A DNA stretch of 64,000 nucleotides from Deroplatys truncata (Eukaryota; Arthropoda; Insecta; Mantodea; Mantidae), in NCBI GenBank assembly GCA_030765065.1, contig CM060978.1, forward strand, positions 52,790,421-52,854,420, written 5' to 3'. Shown here in pieces: positions 4,022-49,200 of this stretch; the first letter of the stretch is position 1, and every line of letters begins with the position of its first letter. The position numbers and the translations under genes were made by a program. The notes below the pieces were generated by a model. The model ran no database searches and had not been told where the DNA came from. It worked only from the letters and a program-made list of their open reading frames with translations.

Positions 4022-4760
4022 AGGCTACCGGGTACCATACGTGCGGTTGCAACTACTTCAAGTTCGGCTCCCCAACAGTTGAACTATAATCCAACTTCTT
4101 CAAATTGGCGTCCATACGTGGTGCTAATAACTAACGTAACAAACAAACCAACTTCACACATCACATTTTAAAGATCTGATGTAAACTTACGAAATCTCTT
4201 GTCCTTTTTAGATAGTGCCAAACGATTCTTCTCCACCCAGATAAACCTTACGCAAATCTGGAGCATTATTTCCGTCATACATATACAACAGCCGGATACT
4301 TGCACAATTTAGAAATAAACTACAGACATGCGTCATTAAAAATTCAATAACTGTTCCTTAGTACCATTTTCCGCGTAGATTCATGTCGTTTTCTAAGAGT
4401 TGTATTGCGTCTTTATTAAAACTTTCATCATGTTCGTTACTCATGATTTTTCTCCAGATAACTCTAAATTATATGCCTTTTTTCCTGCTTTTTCAGTCCC
4501 GTGGTTATGCTATTTGACTTTTCTTGCAGTAATTTTCAGTGCCGTAGCTTGATACTGCGTTCTGGGTATACTAGATTTTAAAAACTGAATTTAGAGTTTT
4601 TTAAGTGATGCTTGTGCACACATCCACTAGTGTTTCACAAGATAGTGTGAATTCTCTATTACGATTCGATTATTGTTGTTGTTTTAGTAATCATTAACAT
4701 CACTATTAATTGCCGAAATTGACTGAACATATATTTTAAACTAAACTAAATTATAAAAAA
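4022..4760. other. unassigned; possible leader remnant of the LTR-like element
   Basis: There is no recognised coding sequence. The motif CATACGTG occurs twice, near 4035 and 4109, in similar contexts. The rest is AT-rich and unlike the other repeats in the window. Confidence 0.3.
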
Positions 4761-5619: not shown

Positions 5620-6689
5620 TATAGCGTTAGGTGTAACTTTACAAAATACTGACAAACCGTTGTATGTTGTAAATCATGAAAACAATGTGGGTACTCACTT
5701 AGATTTTCTTGTATATAAGCAGTCGGCGATTTTTATTGCAAGCTTTTCTTTCAATGTTTTTAATATTTGATATTCCTTCAACACTCCATTCTTTTCCCCC
5801 GCCAAAAAGCAAACATACGAAGCAACACACTTTGTTATGAATGTAATTGCTAGTTAACCAATTAAATTTACTGTACCAGAATGCTTGAAATGTCCGTTTT
5901 TGGTTCTTTTCCGGGAAGACAATGTCAAGCTAGGGAATTGGTCTTTGGCCTTTAAGTTCACACTTTTTCTCATTAAAAGAGAAGTAATCCAATAAATCGA
6001 TGGAATTGTCCATATTTCTAAAATCATAAATAAAACACGCACAATGAAAACAATACACAGGTTCACGTAAAATGAATACTTTACTGCACGGCTGCACGCA
6101 CATAATGCTGGTTCACCAATAACTGAGGAATGAAGTGTTTATGTTACACTGCCTTGCCCTACTCTTGTCTTCAACCCCTGTTGTCCTGTTTCCGGACTTT
6201 GGAGAGAGCAAGTACACAGAGACTAAACACCTCATTAAACGTGTTAGATCTCTGCTGCTGCCTTTGTGCCCTTAATGCACAACAAAATATAGACATGTCT
6301 TCCTACAACGAGAGGTCGAAATTTAGTGGGAAAAGCTATATAAGTTCACCCTTGATGACACTTGCACTCGCTCAGCCATCCCAGTCTCTACTCGACTTTG
6401 TTCCCGCATATGAGATTTCGAAGCTGCCTAAGCACGCACCAATGGCGGAAAGCAAAAGCAGACCCAAGTTTCTCTATTACGTTATTAAATTTAACATCAA
6501 TTCTTAAGACAAAATAGAAAGTACAGAGATAGAAATAAGAACTTTAAGATGGACACGTGGGAAAAGTTGACCTTACAACTGATTAGAAAAATGTGCTGAA
6601 CTTTACAGACTTTTTTTTTCTTTTCACACTGAGTAAATTCCAGTTAGCTTAGTCCATATTCACTTACCGAAAGACAGACAGAAAACAGA
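5620..6689. other. unassigned unique-looking DNA
   Basis: Two modest open frames lie here, 5854-6066 on the minus strand (70 codons) and 6130-6507 on the plus strand (125 codons). Neither shows a domain, signal or composition that I recognise, and ORFs of this length are expected by chance. It is the least repeat-like stretch of the first 10 kb. Confidence 0.4.
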
Positions 6690-10507: not shown

Positions 10508-11773
10508 CGAGAGTTGGAACTTAAATAGTGGCAACTATTTTTTTACAGCCTATACAAAAGAGTTACATGTTAGCAACATTTACTGCCCTTCAATGTAGTC
10601 ATCAGCGTTGTATATAACCCTTTTCCAGCCATGTGGAAGTCGTAGTATACCTTTAGCAGAGCTGTTCTGTTGATAGTGCGAATGGAGCGGTCTACTACCT
10701 GACGAATCTCTGGAACAGTTCTGAAGCGAATGCCACGAAGTGGTTCCTTCATCTTCAGAATCAAATCAAAGTCACAAGGACTTAAGTCCGGGGAGTATGG
10801 TGGATGGTACAGCACTTCACAGTCCCATTGACGTAACAAATCAGCCACAGTTTGCGCTGTATGCGCCCGAGCATTGTCGTGCAAAATGATGGGTGAATTC
10901 TGCAGAAAGTGTTGCCGCTTCTTTCTCATAGCTGGTGGCAGGTGGTGCTCCAAAAAGAACGATAATACTGTGCATTAACTGTCGTACACACGAGAATCAC
11001 CATAACTATCACATTGCTGGGGCTCTGACGAACTTTCGATTTTCCTGGCGACCCGTAATGACGCCACTCGTTCGATTGGCGTTTCAGTTTTGGCTCATAC
11101 GATTTGGCCCATGTCTCATCAGCGTTATGATATGGCGTAAGAAAGCCTCTCCTTCGCGCTCATAACGCTCCAAGTGCGTCCTAGCAGCGTCGTAACGCAA
11201 CCATTTCTGCATTTCCGTCAAATTATGCGGAACCCATCGTGATGCATCACCAGGCGTTCCTTCAGGATGTGAAGCACAGTCATATGCGTTAATCCGGTTT
11301 CTTGGGCTAGCTCACGAATCGTCTGGCGTCGATCACTGTCCAGCAAGGCGGCAAGAGCATGCACTTCTTCTTCACTGACGCTAGGACGACCTGCCCGATG
11401 CATGTCTGCCACAGTTTGCCGACCAACGTTAAAGGCTTTTACCCAACGTGCCACTGTTTTTTAAGGCAATGCAGATTCCCCACAAGCCTTTTGAAGACCT
11501 TGATGACACTGTCCAGCAGTAGGACCTCTGGCACATCCAATCTTGATCCAACTCCGTTGTTCCTGTTTCGAAAACATCGTGACAACACTACGTTAGACCG
11601 CTAGATCACAAGTGACTGTTTCTCTCGAATGTGCGCACGCAGGTGAAGTGGGAAGAGAGTCCATTTGCTCTGAGGTAAGGTAGGTGTGTAACTAATGTGT
11701 GCTATCAGCGACAATATTAGATTCCGTTGCATAGCGTCTCTACAGCAGTGTTGCCACTAAGTTCCAACCCTCG
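10508..11773 (-). mobile_element. mariner element with terminal inverted repeats (mariner 2)
   Basis: Flanked by TA at 10506-10507 and 11774-11775. The ends are CGAGAGTTGGAACTTA and, in reverse complement, CGAGGGTTGGAACTTA, with a further shared TGGCAAC. The length of about 1.27 kb is normal for a mariner. It is a different subfamily from mariner 1, as shown by its ends and its RPAMRKKR-type transposase. It is close to full length but inactive. Confidence 0.85.
10580..11577 (-). pseudogene. mariner DD34D transposase, broken (mariner 2)
   Basis: It starts MFSKQEQRSWIKIGCARG at 11577. The N-terminal helix-turn-helix is followed by VARWVKAFNVGRQTVADMHR, GRPSVSEEEVHALAALLD and a second helix-turn-helix (TIRELAQETGLTHMTVLHIL). 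The WVPH linker leads to the first catalytic Asp (DETW), which is out of frame after a one-base shift. The second Asp is in ILHDNARAHTA and the third in YSPDLSPCDFD, with 34 residues between them. A short block between KVMVIL and NAQYY is deleted, and the last ~25 codons run in another frame to a stop at 10580. It therefore has an in-frame stop, at least two frameshifts and one small deletion, and can make no transposase. Confidence 0.85.
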
Positions 11774-11924
11774 TACAATGCGTTTGTAATTCGGCCGGAC
11801 CGTTCCTTGGCGGTCTTGGACTGGGCAAGGTTTAGCGCGCCTTCCGCCAGAGTTACACATAAACGACCGAAAAGTCATAGGTACCGAACACTAACTACTG
11901 TACTAAGTTACATTAGGCTTACCT

Positions 11925-12520
11925 GCATCACAACAGATGTTGAAATTTATGACCTTCAGCGCGAACACGTTCCCTATATCTCCGAATACAATTCTGGTTT
12001 TCTCGAAAAAGTTCATGTTGACTGATTGCTCGTATTTCTCTCGTGATGTTGTCCTTCATTTCTAATAGCGTGTGCGGATTTGATGCGTACACTTTATTCT
12101 TTAACATTCCCCATAAATAAAACTCGCATGGAGACAGGTCAGGGGAACGAGGTGGCCACAATCCTCGACTTATTATTCTGTCACCATACACACTTCGCAT
12201 TTCATGCATAGAATTGGCAGCAGTGTGTGCTGAAGCTGAATCCTGCTGAAACCAGCAACACAACCTTTCATTTCTTGCTTGTTGCAGAAACAATTTATCT
12301 AAAATTGAATTTACATAAACGTGTGAATCAAATGTTGTGTCAAAAAATATGGGACCGATAATTCTACGCAATTTCACTGCGCACCAAACCCCAACTTTTG
12401 CCGCATAGTGAGGAACTTCATGAATAATATGGGAGTTTTTGGTAGTCCAGTATCTATTGTTCTGAGTAGAAACGTGACCCTGATGATAAAACTACGCTTC
12501 ATCAGTGAAGAACGTTAAAG
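11925..12520 (-). pseudogene. IS630/Tc1/mariner-type transposase, DD38E spacing, N-terminus lost
   Basis: The minus strand encodes the C-terminal ~195 residues of a transposase. FTDEA contains the first Asp and is followed by one stop codon. Next come a VGVWCAV-KLRRIIGPIFF block, WFQQDSASAHTA (second Asp), the RIISRGLWPPRSPDLSPCEF box (third acidic residue Glu) and YLWGMLKNKVY, ending in a GHKFQHLL tail. Counting residues gives 38 between the second Asp and Glu. The helix-turn-helix half is missing: homology stops at about 12520 where GC-rich unrelated DNA begins. Terminal repeats were not found. The catalytic part is well preserved (149 codons open), so it is younger than the mariners next to it or was truncated recently. 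Confidence 0.8.
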
Positions 12521-14761: not shown

Positions 14762-15395
14762 ACAGGGTGATTTATGAAGAACTGACACAGTCATTTCTTT
14801 AATTGTTTCAAAACGAGTTATGCTAGCGACAACTTATTATACCTGAAATGCAGAGAAATTTTGGGAGATTATTTACCTCTGTAGCAAATATTGAAAATGT
14901 TCTCGTCCATCCTGCATAAGGCCCAACTCAAAACGTCTTTCCATGCTAATTGGCCACTCGGTGGAGTACTCTGTTATTAGCTTGAATCTCCTGTGTAAAG
15001 TTGTGCTTCAGATCGTCCAATGTCTGGGAACGTGTGACATAAACCCTGTCTTTTAAGTAACCCCATAGAAAGAAGTCCGGCGATGTCAAATCCCGGGATC
15101 TCGGTGGCCATAGGTTCTTGGAAATTATCCGGTCGTCAAAGAAACTTGCAATTAGTGCCATGGATTCATTTGATGTATGGCATGTAGCGCCGTCCTGCTG
15201 AAAATATCCTTGACTCAGCTCTACATCGTCTAGTTGCTCAGCAAACTCCATGAAAATCCGTCGGTTCTCTGCATGTTCACATTGTTTTAAAAAAACAATT
15301 GGTCCCAATATTCTCTGTGAGGATATTGCACACCAAACTCCGATTTTAACCGGGTGCATAGGTGAATAGCCAGATAAATGGAACTTTATACGTTG
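14762..15395 (-). pseudogene. DD38D transposon remnant (copy A), N-terminal half lost
   Basis: The element's 3' terminus TACAGGGTGATTTATGAAGA is at 14762, matching the ends of the fuller copy at 29985-31301. The minus strand carries KFHLSGY, then a jump to MHPVKIGVWCAI, RILGPIVF, YFQQDGATCHTS (second Asp), RIISKNLWPPR and DLTSPDFFLWG (third Asp), giving 38 residues between the two. About 22 residues between HLSGY and MHPV are deleted. The helix-turn-helix domain and first Asp are gone. It ends just before a palindromic MITE at 15428. Confidence 0.85.
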
Positions 15396-15427
15396 ATATG
15401 CACGTGCGTATATAACGCATAAAATTA

Positions 15428-15762
15428 CGAGGGGCGTCCAATAAGTAAGTTTCCCTATTTTATAAAAAGCATTACACACAATTGATCATGTTGAATTAAT
15501 TTTATTTATATTGTACAATCCTTCTGTTACTTTTCTACAGAGTCAACATGTTTTTCCAAGCATTTTTGGTGGCGCGACACAGGTTTTTCCAAGCCAGTGT
15601 TGTACTAGGTCGGGTCCTGTGCTCGTTAACCAGAAAAACATGCTGACTATGTAGAAGAGTAACAAAAGGATTGTACATTATAAATAAAATTAATTCAACA
15701 TGATCAGTTGTGTTTAATGTTTTTTTATAAAATAGGGAAACTGACTTATTGGACGACCCTCG
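15428..15762. mobile_element. palindromic mariner-derived MITE (fold-back, copy A)
   Basis: Flanked by TA (15426-15427 and 15763-15764). The termini CGAGGGGCGTCCAATAAG and, in reverse complement, CGAGGGTCGTCCAATAAG open inverted arms of about 120 bases, which run through ACAATTGATCATGTTGAA and TACAATCCTTTTGTTAC. Both arms derive from the same end of one mariner: in each, the sequence inside the 3' end reads towards the transposase C-terminus. The centre is short. A longer relative lies at 37042-37669. Confidence 0.85.
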
Positions 15763-15764
15763 TA

Positions 15765-16559
15765 CTTTACTATAGCTATACTAATATTTTGTGAAGTTGT
15801 TTAATCCTTTTCTTCCTTGTATCTACGCCCTTATTTGTCTAACCGCGTAGTTTTTCCTTACAACCCATAAATCGACAGCTCCTTCCTAATGACCCTCATT
15901 AGCCGAGTACGCTAATGGAAATTGACCATCGGCGCAATACGAATGTTAGAATGTTTTAAAAATCTTTGCCTAGCATTTTTTTATCCGGAGTTTATTCCAA
16001 AAATACTTCTTAGAGGATTTCAAAATGTTAATTTCCAGTGAATATAAGTTCCTAAAGCAGTAGTGAAAGCAAGTATGTCTAATGCAACGACCATGAAGAA
16101 AAATACTACGTAATACAACCATTTTTACTTACATTCTAATAAGGATCAAGTACTCCAATTACACGCTAGCTGAAACAAAAGAAGCTCGACACTGCTAATT
16201 ATCCAAGTCCGAACTAAACCTAGTAATGCCTTGTACACCCCAAGTAAGCGTGTGACCTTCCACGGAACTGCTTATCGAGATAACAGTGGCGTGACACCAG
16301 TTTTGAGATACGCTGTGTTCATACGAGGTAATGGGCATATTTCGTGGTTCTCCGGAATACAATAAAATTATAAGTAAGAACTGGCCAGGATAAAAATCTG
16401 GAAGGTAAAACGTTTTAAAAACCTTTTGCCACTTGCCTCCACTCCCAAGGTCCCAAGGGTGACTACTTCAAAAAATGAAAAAGAAAAGGTTAAATATAAA
16501 TAAAAAATGTCCATCTAAAGTATAGTTTACCGAGGGGGATAACCCCAAATTTCCTATTC
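15765..16559. other. unassigned, with a faint R fragment
   Basis: No gene. Around 15985-16070 the run CCAAAAATACTT...GGATT...AATTTCCAGTGAA resembles the right part of R on the plus strand and is probably an old fragment. Confidence 0.35.
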
Positions 16560-18716: not shown

Positions 18717-18876
18717 TATACAGGGTAGATCATTTAAGTTGAAACAATACAATATCTCAAAAACTAACAAATGCCTTGAATAAAAGTTGCTTGATATTGT
18801 GGGGGAAACTAAATGGCATTAATGGTGTTTTGTTTGGAGGACGTTATGATGATCATTTTAGAGTCAAGTTAATTTT

Positions 18877-19706
18877 TACTTTCTCTACTACGTATAGTAA
18901 GTAGGGGAAGTATTGCATTCCACCCAAAAATTCGATACCGAGATTTCACCGGAAATACATGTTTTGAGGCCCACTGAATCCAAAAAAGGCATTTTTGGAA
19001 ACATCTCCGTCTGTGTGTCTGTGTGTGTGTGTGTCTTTGAACAGCATAACTCAGGAACGAACAGTCGGATAAGTACCAAACTTGATATTTAGGTTCAGTA
19101 TCTTCCAGAGATGCGACACGAACGTTTTCAGCAAAATCCCCCCACCCCAGATTACCCTTTACATGAAACATTTTTCGAAAATTTTCATTTTCTCAAAAAT
19201 GGCTCTCACGATTTGAATAAAATATCATATGTTTAAGATGTTTTCATGACAAATGAAATGTATATCTCGAATTTTCTGGGAATGTCTCCATAAGTATTTT
19301 TCATTGTGAACGACTTTTGCATAACTGGTAAACATAAGAGATAGGCAAAATTTTACTACACAAAAAATGTAGATCGCGTTAAAATACACAATTTATGTCA
19401 TATACGTTTTGTTTTGTTGAGTGAACCATTTTCGAGATATTTCTTGTTATTCCCTTAAATTTTCCAATACTTATACTTTTTCTCAAATTCGTTATTCATT
19501 TTTTTATGTCCTGGATTTGCAAAGAGAATGGAATACTCGACATAGCAACCAGCGTTAAAATATTTGACTATCGCTTAAAGCCTAGCAATTCCCCTCGCAA
19601 TAAAATTAACATCTCGATATCTCGATTAACATGAAGCATATGGAGAATAAGCGTTTGTAAAAATAGTTTGTACAAGAGTAGAGAAAGTCATGTGAGTGTA
19701 ACACAT
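18877..19706 (-). repeat. R-I copy, short variant, in the left arm
   Basis: Near full length: TTACTTTCTCTACTACG on the left and GTAACACATCAGAT on the right. Flanks are GTTAATTTT and TTTTTTTAAATGGGAAC, so the target was a T-run. Confidence 0.85.
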
Positions 19707-19966
19707 CAGATTTTTTTTAAATGGGAACCTACATTTTGTATGTTGTTTTCTCATTAGAAAATGCTTTATAAAAAGCTGTTTATGACCAAATGACCATCCA
19801 TGGATGGCCCAACCGTTCATTACGCTTTTCGTACACAGCCATTCAGAATGGTCCTTGTTATTTACATTGGTGTAAGAACAATTGCAAAGTGCTTTATACA
19901 AATGTTGTTGAGTTTTTTATGGAGGTATTAAAACAACACAAAAAAGGTAAGTTCCCATTTTAAAAA

Positions 19967-26837: not shown

Positions 26838-27005
26838 TGGAATTAATTGTTCTTTCACACAAGCCGTGTGTTGGACAGGGTTGGAAAGGTAGAATCAGGC
26901 GACTGAAAAATTCAATGCCATGGCCGGGATTTGAACCACGGATCTTCCGGTCTCCGTCCGGTTGCTCTAACCACTGAGCTACCGTGGCAAACGCCGGCAC
27001 GACAC
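26838..27005 (-). repeat. tRNA-like SINE unit at left edge of composite
   Basis: From 27000 leftwards: CCACGGTAGCTCAGTGGTTA (A box region), GTGGTTCAAATCCCGG (B box), then a CATGGCA that nearly pairs with the 5' GCCACGG as an acceptor stem would. The D-arm GCTC/GAGC is intact. The anticodon loop ACGGAGA lacks the invariant U33, and the T-stem pairs poorly, so I call a SINE head and not a gene. The body ends AACAATTAATTCCAT. Confidence 0.6.
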
Positions 27006-33540: not shown

Positions 33541-33800
33541 GTTTTGTGGTGTTAAGCAGTGCCAGACAGATAGCGCGGACGCATGCTCAGTGGAGTGGGT
33601 CGTTAATCACCCTAACTCGGCGGCTCCAGCAGTGGGACGGGTCTGCGAGCTTGGGAATGTTAGGGACTCCCGCGCGTCTCGGTGGCCTGTAGCCTCCTGT
33701 GGTTCCTTCACCTCATCCCTTCCTCCTGAGGAGTGGTAGCCGCAATAGATATGTGCAGGTCGCAGCGCTCGAGATGTCCCCCCTGAATTGAACCCCCTCT
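33541..33800 (+). repeat. S4 repeat copy
   Basis: It shares GCCGCAATAGAT-TGTGCAGGTC and TTCACCTCATCCCTT with 37836-38115, and in inverse with 62098-62415. No tRNA-like promoter is evident, so its class is unresolved. Several overlapping open frames here reflect its GC content. Confidence 0.6.
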
Positions 33801-33828
33801 ACCTCTACCCACTATGGTTACAAGACCT

Positions 33829-35404
33829 TATTTTTCTATTTCATGTTAATCGAGATAAACCTATGCAGAAGTAATTTTATTACTCATTTCGTCATAAGTA
33901 CAAACGGAATAGCTATAGTCGAACGTTTAAAAACTGCTGAATACATACTGGCTAGACATTTCATAGTCTTTCCACGACATCGTGAGAAACAACTGAATAG
34001 CGACAGCACTTTAAAGAAAACATGAAACAATTGAAAACTTAAAACCATAATAACGGATAGGTATCTCGGAAATGGCTGATATAACAAAAATAACTGTTTG
34101 AAATAAATTATGTACTTTAAAGAGATGCTCATTTTTTGTGAAGTAAGTTTCTTTTCTATCACTTATAGTTTACCAATTAAACAAAATTATACAACATTCC
34201 ATTCCCAAGCAATTCAAGATGTACACTCCATTTACCATGTAAATATCTTAAACATATGACATTCTAATAAAAATCGTTAGAGCCATTTTTGACAAAATCC
34301 AGAATTTGGAAAGATGTTCCATGTAAAGGGTAGTTTGGTGTGGGGAGGATTTTCTTGAAAATCTTCGTGTAGGAGCATTAGAAGATACTGAACCTAATTA
34401 GCAGGTTTGATATTTATCCCACGTGATTTTTGGTTATCTGTTCAGATACACCACACATGCATATAGAGACATTTTTATTTTCTCTACTACGTAGCAGAGG
34501 AAGTATTGTATTCCACCCAAAAATTCGATACCGAGATTTCACCGGAAATACATGTTTTGAGACCCCCTGAATCCAAAAAAAAGCATTTTTGAAAACATGT
34601 CCGTGTGTGTGTCTGTGAACAGCATAACTCAGAAACGAACAGTCGGATAAACACCAAACTTGGTATTTAGGTTCAGTATCTTTCAGAGATGCGACACAAA
34701 GGTTTTCAAGAAAATCTCTCCACCCCAGATTACCCTTTACATGGAACATTTTTCGAACATTTTAATTTTCTCAAAAATGGCTCTAACGAATTTGATTAAA
34801 ATATCATATATTTAAGATACTTTCATAACAAATAAAATGTATATCTTGAATTTTCTGGAAATGTTTTCAAAAGTATTCTTCATTGTGACCGACTTTTGCA
34901 TAACTGGTAAACCATAAGAGATAGACAAAATTTTAACTACACAAAAAATGTAGATCGCGTTAAAATACACAATTTATGTCATATACATTTTTTTGTTGAG
35001 TGAACCATTTTCGAGATATTACTTGTTATTCCCTTAAATTTTCCAAAACTTATACTTTTTCTCAAATTCGTTATTCATTTTTTTATGTCCTGGAATACTC
35101 CACATAGCAATCAGCTCTTAAAATATTTGACTATCGCTTAAAGCCTACCAATTCCCCTTGCATCTACAAGAACATTAGCAATAAGATTAACATCTCGATT
35201 AACATGAAGCATATGGAGAATAAGCGTTTGTAAAAATAGTTTGTACAAGAGTAGAGAAAGTCATGTGAGTGTAACACATCAGATTTTTTTCTCTTGTTTT
35301 CGATTTAGCTCAGAACATGTATTTACGGGGAAACCTCGATATCGAATTTTTGGGCGGAATGCAAAACCTCCTTTACCTACTAGGTACACGGTAGAGAAAG
35401 ATAA
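33829..35404 (+). repeat. R-II copy split by an R-I copy
   Basis: The left part is 33829-34482 and the right part 35287-35404. The right part ends ACCTACTAGGTACACGGTAG with terminal stem CTACC/GGTAG. The break is at the T-run after GAGACATTTTT, just beyond the CA microsatellite. Confidence 0.75.
34483..35286 (-). repeat. R-I copy, short variant, nested in R-II
   Basis: Flanks read ...ATTTTTAT before TTTCTCTACTACG and CATCAGAT before TTTTTTCTC. AAAAAT (minus strand) occurs at both junctions, either a short duplication or low-complexity coincidence. Confidence 0.85.
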
Positions 35405-35412
35405 AATCCCGT

Positions 35413-35530
35413 GTATAGCATTCATATGACTTTTCTACTCATCCTTCTACAAGGTACTTTTACAAAAGCAATTTTTTTTAATGTTCCATTTATATGCTAG
35501 CATTAATATCTCAGGTCATATCTGTGGCTT
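35413..35530 (+). repeat. R left-end fragment
   Basis: CATATGACTTTTCTACTC and TACAAGGTACTTTTACAAAA match the R left end. It is diverged. Confidence 0.5.
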
Positions 35531-36216
35531 TTTATTTTCTCTACTACGTATAGCAAGTGGAGGAAGTATTGCTTTCGACCGAAAAATTCGATACCGAGAT
35601 TTCAGGATATACATGTTTTGAGGACCTCTGAATCCAAAAAGCATTTTTACTTTCTCTACGTGTAGTAAGTAGGAGAAATATTGCATTCCACCCAAAAATA
35701 CGATACCGAGATTTCACCAGAAAATTGAGACCCCTGAATCCAAAAGAAAAATCACTTTTACTTTCTCTACTACAGGGGAAGTATTGCATTCTAACCTAAA
35801 TTCGATGTCGACATTTTACCGGAAATATATGTTTCGAGGCCTCGTGAATTATAAAAGAAGAATAAGCATTTTTACTTTCTCGACTACGTGTTGTAAGTAG
35901 GAGAAGTATTGTATTCCACCCAAAAATACGATACCGAGATTTCACCAGAAATACATGTTTTGAGACCCCTGAATCCAAAAGAAAAATCACTTTTACTTTC
36001 TCTACTAGAGAGAAAGTATTGCATTCTAACCTAAATTCGATGTCGAGGTTTTTCCTAAAATACTTGTTTTGAGGCGAATCCAAAAACAGCATTTTTACTG
36101 TTTCCATTACGTATAGTAAATAGATGAGGTATTGTGTTCCACCTAAAAATTCGATATCGAGATTTTACCGGAAATGTCTTTCGAAGCCTCGTGAATCAAA
36201 AAAGAAAAAAAAAGCA
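35531..36216 (-). repeat. tandem array of truncated R right ends
   Basis: Six successive units of about 100-125 bases begin near 35534, 35648, 35755, 35871, 35991 and 36092. Each starts at the R right end (ACTTTCTCTACTACG, minus strand) and stops at the same internal point, the T-run of GCATTTTT, where the next begins. Units 2 and 4 share AAATACGATACCGAG and AAAAGAAAAATCACTTTTAC. Units 3 and 5 share CATTCTAACCTAAATTCGAT. The array thus has a two-unit higher-order period of about 230 bases. A seventh unit at 36217 continues into a long R-II copy. Confidence 0.85.
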
Positions 36217-37695
36217 TTTTTACTTTCTCTACTACGTGTGTATTAAGTAGGGGAAGTATTGCATTCCACCCAAAAATTCTATACCGATATTTCAGTGGAA
36301 ATACATGTTTTGAGACCCTTTTGAGGCCACCTGAATCCAAATAAAGCATTTTTGGAAACACGTCTGGTGTGTGTTTGTGATAATATACCAAACTTTGTAT
36401 TTGAGTTATGTATCTTCCAGGGATGCGACAGGAAGGATTTTAACAAAATCCCCCCACCCCAAGTGTCCTTTAGGTGGTAATTTTCGAAGACTTTGTTTTT
36501 CTAAAATAGCTCTACCAATTTTCATTAAACTACCATATTTAAATATATTTATATGTCAAATAAAATGTATATCTTGATATTTCTGGGAATAACTCTTCAT
36601 TCGGAAGGAATTTTGTATAATCTATCATAACTGGTAAACGTTAAGTGATAGACGAAAAGGTATTGCATAAAAAATGTAGACCTCTTTAAAACACATAATT
36701 TATTTTAAATAACACTCTTGTGACATCGGTCATTTTCGGGTTATTGATTATTAATGTTTCCGTTTGTGCAGTACTTTGTCATTCGATTGTCACGTCACGT
36801 CGATTGTCAGTTGTTTCTAGCGATTACATGGAAACAGTATGGAATTTTAAGGCCAGCATATAGCGTCCAGTTCTTAATCATTTGACTATCGAAGTTCCCT
36901 TTGTATCTATAACGAAATGTGTAATGTAGCTGTTTCTGCAAATATTTATTTACATTAAAATGAATTAGATAGGAAAATACACTTTTGTAGGAATAATTTG
37001 TAGATATACTCAATAATAAACGACAGAGGTTGGAGAAAATACGAGGATCGTCCAATAAGTAAGCATCCCTATTTTATAAAAAAAAACATTACACACAATT
37101 GATCATGTTGGATTAATTTTATTTGTATTGTACAATACTTCTGTTACTTTTCTATATGGCCAACATATTTTTCCAAGCATTTCTGGAGACGTGACACAAG
37201 TTTTTCTAAGCCAGTGTTGTACCAGGTCGGGTCCTGAAGTGAACAGCTGGTTACGAGCATAGGACCCGACTTCTGGTTCACTTCTGATTCATCTTCATCA
37301 CGGTGTTGAAGTGTTTATCTCCATGATGACATTTGAGTCAGGGGAACATGTGAAGATCACTTGGGAAAAGATCTGGTGAATATGGAGGATGCAAAAAAAC
37401 TTCCCAGTTGAATCTTCTGAGCTCCGCCTGGGTTAATATTCAACTTGGAAGTTTTCTTATATCCTCCGTATTCACCGGAGCTTGCCCCAAGTGATTTTCA
37501 CATGTTCCTCCAACTTAAAGGTAAGCACTTTTAACACCGATGATGAAGTCAAATCAGTGAACAGCTGGTTGCGAGCACAGGACCCGACCTGGTAAAATTA
37601 ATCCAACATGATCAATTGTGTGTTATGTTTTTTATAAAAAAGGGAAACTTACTTATTGGACGACCCTCGTATATGGATTTAACACCTCAGACTTT
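36217..37695 (-). repeat. R-II copy carrying a fold-back mariner
   Basis: It runs from ACTTTCTCTACTACGTGTG through the body to ACACCTCAGACTTTTTAC near 37695. The palindromic element 37042-37669 interrupts it between GGTTGGAGAAAA and TATGGATTTAACACC. Confidence 0.75.
37042..37669. mobile_element. fold-back mariner derivative (copy B), 628 bp
   Basis: TA lies at 37040-37041 and 37670-37671. The termini are CGAGGATCGTCCAATAAG and, in reverse complement, CGAGGGTCGTCCAATAAG. The right arm encodes mariner C-terminal sequence on the plus strand (PPYSPELAPSDFHMFLQLKG). The left arm, read on the minus strand, encodes the same region and beyond (PPYSPDLFPSDLHMF, then DPTWYNTGLEKLVSRLQKCL). Both arms are therefore copies of the 3' end of one mariner, head to head, up to ~300 bases each. 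The arms have diverged and neither is an intact frame. There is no catalytic triad. Confidence 0.85.
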
Positions 37696-48111: not shown

Positions 48112-49200
48112 CACTATGTGATTAAAAGTATCCAGACACCCCACAAACATACGTTTTTCATCATAGGTGCATTGTGCCGCCACCTACTGTCTGGTACTTA
48201 TTATCCGCGACCTCAGTAGTCATTAGACGTCGTGAAACAGCAGAATGCGACGCTCCGTGGAACTCACGGACTTCGAACGTGGTCAGGTGATTGGGTGTCA
48301 CTTTTGTCAGATGTCTGTACGCGAGATTTCCACACTCCTAAACTCCCTAGGTCCACTGTTTCTGATGTGATAGTGAAATGGAAACGTGAAGGGACATGTA
48401 CAGCACAAAAGCGTACAGGCGACCTCGTCTGTTGACTGACAGAGACCGCCGATATTTGAAGAGGGTCGTAAAGAGTAATATGCAGACATCTATCCAGACC
48501 ATCACACAGGAATTCCAAACTGCATCAGGATCCACTCCAAGTACTGAAGAATCACGGTACACAATGTGGCGATCCGATGACAGGGTGTGGGGATGGCGAA
48601 TGCCCAGTGAACGTCATCTGCTAGCGTGTGTAGCGCCAACAGTGAAATTCGGAGGTGGTGGTGTTATGGTGAGGCCGTGCTTTTCCTGGTGGGGGCTTAC
48701 TCCTCTTGTTGTTTTGCGTGGCACGATCACAGCGCAGTCCTACATTGATATTTTAAGCACCTTCTTGCTTCCCACTGTTGAAGAGCAATTCGGGGATGGC
48801 GATTGCATCTTTCAACACGATCGAGCACCTGTTCATACTGCAGGAGCTGTGGCGGAGTGGTTACACAACAATAACATCCCTGTAATGGACTGACCTGCAC
48901 AAAGTCCTGACTTGAATCCTATAGGGCACATTTGGGATGTTTTGGAACGCCGACTTCGTGCCAGGCCTCACCGACCTACATCGATACCTCTCCTCAATCC
49001 CGCACTCCGTGAAGAATGGGCTGCCATTCCCCAAGAAACCTTCCAGCACCTGATTGAAAGTATGCCTGCGAGAGTGAACGCTGTCATCAAGGCTAAGGGT
49101 GGGCCAACACCATATTGACTTCCAGTATTACCGATGGAGGGCGCCACGAACTTGTACGTCATTTTCAGCCAGGTGTCCGGATACTTTTGATCACGTAGTG
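48112..49200 (+). mobile_element. Tc1-like element (copy 1), inserted in the LINE
   Basis: TA lies at 48110-48111 and 49201-49202. The terminal repeats CACTATGTGATTAAAAGTAT and, in reverse complement, CACTACGTGATCAAAAGTAT agree at about 26 of 30 positions. It is shorter than a full relative because of an internal deletion. The LINE continues on both sides. Confidence 0.9.
48245..49118 (+). pseudogene. Tc1-like DD34E transposase, deleted and mutated (copy 1)
   Basis: MRRSVELTDFERGQVIGCHF starts the paired-type helix-turn-helix. VSDVIVKWKREGTC and TDRDRRYLKRVVKSNMQTSI follow after frame changes. Compared with the copy at 63360, about 57 codons between GSTPST and ESRYTMW are deleted, taking out the first catalytic Asp. 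FGGGGVMV, CIFQHDRAPVHTAG (second Asp), SPDLNPIGHIWDVLERRLRA and AAIPQETFQHLIESMPARVN follow, to KAKGGPTPY. The third acidic residue, Glu in NPIE of active relatives, is Gly here. One stop interrupts before AQSPDLNP. It is therefore dead at two of three catalytic positions. Confidence 0.9.

Follow-up and report, generated by a model that had tools for sequence, protein, structure and literature searches.

Tandem 5' ends of a non-autonomous Helentron in the genome of the mantis Deroplatys truncata and their likely founding by self-insertion

The question raised by this locus of the mantis Deroplatys truncata is how one end of a transposable element came to be repeated head to tail in front of a single element body. 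The window, i.e., the whole stretch of DNA analysed, is 64,000 nucleotides long (C4:52790421-52854420 of a 4.29-Gb genome) and contains copies of an element termed R, 16 of which were used to build a unit profile and a body profile for nhmmer searches. By the unit profile, the window contains 33 runs, 32 of which consist of a single unit; the sole array (35530-36352, + strand) consists of seven head-to-tail R 5' units of 102-135 bp each, all of which start at the R terminus. A sequence-only reading of the window had described six truncated units of the R "right end"; the six truncated units stand, while a seventh unit belonging to an R copy brings the total to seven, and the usual naming of Helentron ends makes the unit the 5' end. 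The array and its neighbours are as follows:

33797-34475, - strand: older R body, apparently parted from its unit by the R at 34473-35287 (profile)
34473-35287, + strand: younger single-unit R beside the array (unit 34473-34590, body 34593-35287; profiles)
35293-35405, - strand: unit on the far side of the insert at 34473-35287 (profile)
35530-35647, + strand: unit 1, an R 5'-terminal unit (nhmmer unit profile)
35644-35755, + strand: unit 2, pairing with unit 4 at 92% (profile match to 35748; nhmmer profile and unit comparison)
35756-35871, + strand: unit 3 (nhmmer profile; halves compared with units 5 and 6)
35870-35990, + strand: unit 4, pairing with unit 2 (profile match to 35983; nhmmer profile and unit comparison)
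35991-36095, + strand: unit 5, pairing with unit 3 (nhmmer profile and unit comparison)
36093-36220, + strand: unit 6 (nhmmer profile)
36218-36352, + strand: unit 7, joined to an R body (nhmmer profile)
36385-37002, + strand: old, diverged R body completing the element, model positions 69-681 of 724 (body profile)

R belongs to the non-autonomous Helentrons (HINEs), and the array unit is its 5' end. Full copies in the window measure ~770-920 bp and consist, in order, of a T-run, the 5' unit, GCATTTTT, a TG/TCTG microsatellite, the body, a subTIR, a short hairpin sequence and a further T-run, with unit and body meeting at a T-run (GCATTTTT/GGAAAC). The subTIRs (ACTTTCTCTACT at the 5' end and AGTAGAGAAAGT near the 3' end) are exact complements over 12 bp. 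The portion of PMC4067079 available gives as HINE features subTIRs of 12-15 bp, a palindromic 5' subTIR, a 3' stem-loop, a T-rich or TT target without target duplication, and an autonomous partner. The 5' 43 nt of R fold with z = -3.9, none of 200 shuffles being as good; the 3' hairpin (ATGTG...CACAT) is present in the sequence with a weak energy (z = -1.1, equalled by 31 of 200 shuffles). T-runs flank both ends of the R copies in the window, and nested R sites run from 5 T to 5 T on each side, so that a 5-T target duplication is indistinguishable from the element's own Ts. The 3' subTIR lies ~27 bp from the R terminus, compared with the 38-60 bp given for mite families in the same portion of PMC4067079, a distance treated here as a variant rather than as a hallmark of the superfamily. 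No function is indicated beyond that of the transposon's own ends. The idea that R is a MITE bearing long inverted arms was rejected, the large palindromes being two R copies head to head.

The genome also contains an autonomous partner with the same ends. Helitron_like_N has 152 genome matches (150 of 291 candidates scored), and among the matches listed are 18 open frames of at least 2,000 aa (2108-2543 aa) carrying this domain. The one copy examined (L071/L072, C4:200718501-200734500, 16 kb when joined) contains a 2324-aa frame, the last 2082 aa of which match Helitron_like_N, PIF1 and DUF6570; the C-terminus matches an Exo_endo_phos_2 endonuclease (28.3 bits versus a cut-off of 27.4), and the helicase part matches, among others, the sequence of the solved Helraiser chain. 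Its Rep motif is GSPHEH, the S of which is a Helentron mark in the available part of PMC4067079. The copy thus combines Rep/helicase and endonuclease with the ends of R, namely the 5' unit plus body to model position 609 at the 5' end and the last 39 bp of R at the 3' end. On the gene strand, the order from position 2085 is unit-body (1-503), unit-body (1-500), unit-body (1-609) and the 2324-aa frame, followed by the last 39 bp of R (to 13188), body (498-723) and body (497-722). The locus reads as an autonomous Helentron inserted in an R that is itself inserted in another R, its heads and tails being properly ordered. The N-terminal part of the frame contains a K-, E- and R-rich tandem repeat.

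Within the window array, four of the six unit-unit joints are GCATTTTT, and units 2 and 4 have an altered ending (ATCACTTTT) at the same point, which bears out the fixed internal joint noticed earlier. The two-unit period is likewise borne out by identities of 92% between units 2 and 4 and 82% between units 3 and 5, and by an ungapped 91% match between 35725-35840 and 35960-36075. The pairing of units 3 and 5 holds for the 5' half (94%); unit 3 is a mosaic whose 5' half is 94% identical to unit 5 and 61% to unit 6, and whose 3' half is 55% identical to unit 5 and 75% to unit 6. The diagnostic words of the 2-3/4-5 dimer and of the mosaic unit are confined to the window array among the loci scanned. 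The dimer and the mosaic unit point to later duplication and exchange on the spot, in agreement with the earlier claim that a dimer was amplified later. Counting against tidy local growth, mean identity inside the array (81.4%) is barely above the mean identity with other units (80.4%). Units 1 and 7 are closer to single R units than to most of their array neighbours, and only three of the seven units have their nearest relative inside the array; some may therefore be separate insertions, or may have been converted from other R copies. Unit 7 looks younger than its own body: it stands at 92.6 to the consensus where its body predicts 85.0 (z = 2.4 relative to 59 single copies), a gap left unaccounted for by one old insertion. 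Unit 7 and L078 (z = -3.0) mark the extremes of unit-versus-body age in the set of 19 copies that have a unit upstream. Chance or assembly artefact was discarded on the grounds that the window units differ pairwise by 8-30% and that reversed-pattern controls gave 0.

If one R inserted in another at the unit/body T-run, the cut-off body of the older copy, i.e., a remainder beginning at its first positions, would be expected on the + strand right behind the 3' end of the younger one. As the sequence-only reading had noted, none is identified by the profiles after 37002 within the window. That reading set the missing remainders against nested insertion at the array; as an argument against nesting in general, their absence is not sustained by the genome-wide data. 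Junctions were counted as exact patterns on both strands; since the patterns differ in length and allow a few spacer letters, ratios among the counts are rough, and the reversed-pattern control returned 0 for all ten patterns counted. Exact matches number 106,579 for the unit-to-body junction, 355 for the unit-unit junction (involving ~0.3% of exact unit ends) and 367 for the remainder junction (R 3' end to cut-off body start), the last counted with a replacement for a stricter pattern that needed six T and proved too narrow (60 places). A crude model of uniform insertion in T-runs, using the T-run density of the window, expects 56, 162 and 520 junctions for runs of at least 4, 5 and 6 T, respectively. 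An R 3' end is directly joined to an R 5' end at 6,585 places. The unit-unit junction is found at other loci, and a refutation based on its being unique to the locus of the window array therefore fails.

The two kinds of junction are also paired. The comparison covered the 87 unit-unit junctions that lie no further than C4:141.9 Mb (from 100 listed, out of 355 counted) and 100 listed of the 367 remainders. For at least 25 of the 87 (at least 22 of 82 loci), a same-strand remainder lies downstream within 4 kb, and 16 of these 25 remainders are at 851-962 bp, i.e., one R length. Upstream and opposite-strand controls gave 0, and shuffled positions gave a mean of 0.02 and a maximum of 1 in 200. 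Because matching was exact, the figure is a lower bound; the other 62 of the 87 listed junctions have no exact remainder. The profiles display the order unit-unit-body-remainder at L010, L012, L020, L029, L032 and L048, and do not display it at L027/L045 (truncated body), L031 (no body) or L047. The balance of 355 to 367 and the downstream remainders at 25 of 87 junctions indicate that simple self-insertion into an internal T-run is a frequent source of unit-unit junctions.

Longer arrays occur elsewhere in the genome. Runs of at least three units were taken from scored candidates (40 of 16,495) and from junction loci, all picked by junction or similarity and not randomly, and represent a selection, not a census. 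The 24-mer GCATTTTTACTTTCTCTACTACGT was tried as an array marker and given up: it occurs at 4,542 exact places, but 19 of 30 loci read have no unit directly upstream, R being simply inserted next to GCA, and a longer marker with GAATCCAAAA was used in its place. The collection comprises 20 runs from the window and 17 loci (L078 and L087 with two runs each; L086 and L087 as parts of one array on C14), and outside C14 the runs range from 3 to at least 17 units (L075, cut by the end of the stretch). Nine units precede one full body at L002, and at L084 three units are followed by a body and one remainder. A later body start at L075 and L079 is a possible remainder, and at the other array loci no remainder was seen within the stretches read. 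The nearest relative lies in the same run for 93 of 161 units over the 20 runs (expected shares 0.01-0.13), with at least one such unit in 17 runs and none in L030, L081 and one of the two L078 runs.

The largest array, C14:207877550-207921570, comprises ~44 kb of R 5' units ending in one full R body (L086). Units are found throughout the ~26 of 44 kb read, including two stretches skipped by the profile that are plainly units; the reading covers the array except 207878101-207892949 (matched in the initial scan) and 207910009-207913442. At ~115 bp per unit, the array would contain some 380 units. Classical satellite DNA has long arrays of hundreds of units, a length that the seven units of the window array do not reach; the C14 array appears to be the satellite born from a transposon end that was envisaged earlier. 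Unit types alternate in the part of the C14 array inspected by eye. Tandem composites of head plus body were also observed, with periods of ~1680 bp (C1:24211802-24215205, L015-L017) and ~778 bp (C1:17240773-17241582, L012 and L013).

With unit-unit and remainder junctions similarly frequent, and with a downstream remainder at 25 of 87 listed junctions, nesting is the likely founder of such arrays. No remainder is left at the window array, and founding by nesting at this locus must therefore be inferred. R inserts in T-runs and itself carries T-runs, one of them at the meeting point of 5' unit and body; an R landing in this T-run of another R gives the order unit-unit-body-remainder. At the window array, the remainder may have been lost when a composite bounded by the outer 5' end and the first 3' end transposed, or when the two adjacent bodies recombined. 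The resulting direct repeat of ~118 bp would then have grown on the spot to seven units by unequal exchange or conversion, a process that would include the one dimer duplication and the one mosaic unit observed, and the same course carried further, from dimer to long array, could have produced the C14 satellite. As a full explanation, the combination of a nesting founder, loss of the remainder and growth on the spot is considered reasonably probable, though well short of assured. End capture of the rolling-circle or template-switch type, which the sequence-only reading had also considered, is a possible mechanism as well.

Three other origins have to be weighed against it. In the plant model of Xiong et al. 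2016, as retold in the portion of PMC12628747 available, a circle lacking a 3' terminator is copied repeatedly, and a string of 5' ends is inserted as one piece with a single 3' end. Such a concatemer is unlikely here, even though many 5' ends with one body are what is found at L002 (nine units), at L086 (the end of the C14 array) and in the window: the dimer, the mosaic unit and the unequal divergence of the units would all require later change, and the remainders at 25 of 87 listed junctions require no circle. Slippage between the terminal and internal T-runs could have made the first dimer without any insertion, and five T common to both joints and the lack of a visible remainder at the window array would suit it; slippage leaves no remainders, however, whereas the genome-wide match between head and tail counts and the remainders paired downstream show that insertion is frequent, and this origin is given little credence.

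Six successive self-insertions, each at the newest unit and with all six remainders later lost, appear less credible still. The insertion site is indeed used genome-wide (355 exact junctions), and one remainder is kept by L084 with its three units and possibly by L075 with at least 17, but only ~0.3% of exact unit ends carry a junction, which makes six in a row without a remainder improbable. No array of at least three units has n-1 remainders within the stretches read, and the 2-3/4-5 pairing already suggests that unit ages have no order along the array.

The internal T-runs of R are not used equally. The T-run near model position 500 (~497, 6 T) counts 17,725 heads and 10,707 tails as exact matches, far more than the T-run of similar length 92 positions upstream (model position ~405, 7 T in the consensus), with 931 heads and 938 tails; heads and tails balance at the latter and at the unit/body T-run (355/367), and not at the former. 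The surplus of heads near position 500 hints that nested composites are mobilised again as new, multi-headed elements. A broader and decidedly tentative idea is that R bears its own landing pads, and that insertion into them is the engine of terminal tandem repeats and finally of satellites. Tails occur in tandem ~232 bp apart (e.g., C1:24690184, 24690416 and 24690648), and the spacing of heads is often 610-670 or 443-451 bp.

Comparisons with known systems rest on the parts of the cited papers that were available. R and HINE/DINE-1 elements (PMC4067079) have in common short subTIRs, a palindromic 5' subTIR (mite set), a microsatellite, a T-rich target, lack of coding capacity, very high copy number and an autonomous partner with the same ends; R differs in repeating the 5' terminus itself, before the microsatellite, and not a central repeat. 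Fusarium Helitrons (PMC5148889) have multiple 5' termini and one 3' terminus, a structure for which the proposed cause is self-insertion, with reading as far as the first 3' end. They resemble the R arrays in the repetition of a short 5' segment (typically < 200 bp) and the single 3' terminus, but have one or few extra termini, compared with at least 17 units and a ~44-kb satellite in R; self-insertion is a proposal in Fusarium, whereas in R the intermediate, remainder included, is present at 22 or more of 82 loci. Plant centromeric Helitron arrays (Xiong et al. 2016 in PMC12628747) likewise have many 5' ends, in several to hundreds of repeats, and a single 3' end; they are Helitrons for which rolling-circle amplification is proposed, while R is a Helentron and its arrays show signs of local exchange. 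Oyster Cg_HINE elements (PMC7492417) also bear short arrays, some related to a classical satellite, although these follow the microsatellite and are flanked on both sides. Two scenarios for their origin are discussed there, and whether tandem repeats inside Helitron-like elements arise by capture or by growth from the element's own sequence is debated (PMC7492417). Since plants and Fusarium already provide examples of Helitrons with multiple 5' ends and a single 3' end, the R arrays are a well documented addition to a known phenomenon. No report of balanced heads and tails or of a favoured own T-run was found in the literature searched, which does not prove absence. One genome here holds the candidate intermediates together (single R, self-nested R with remainder, short arrays and a long satellite), and the self-insertion route becomes countable and testable, beyond a mere proposal.

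Several further features of the window were observed. Within 33797-35405, the younger R (+ strand) apparently landed in a T-run complementary to the A-run of the unit of the older R (- strand). The only Rfam match in the window is a tRNA (26916-26988, - strand, 52.8 bits). The body of the array is followed by an inverted repeat at 37036-37672, with related copies near 15422-15768, which is presumably mariner-like, and the open frames at 10570-12491, 14946-15485 and 48390-48893 look, by their motifs, like remains of mariner/Tc1-type transposases. The oppositely oriented R copies at 18872-19717 and 20869-19962 have similar flanks, as if the same site had been hit in two copies of one host repeat.
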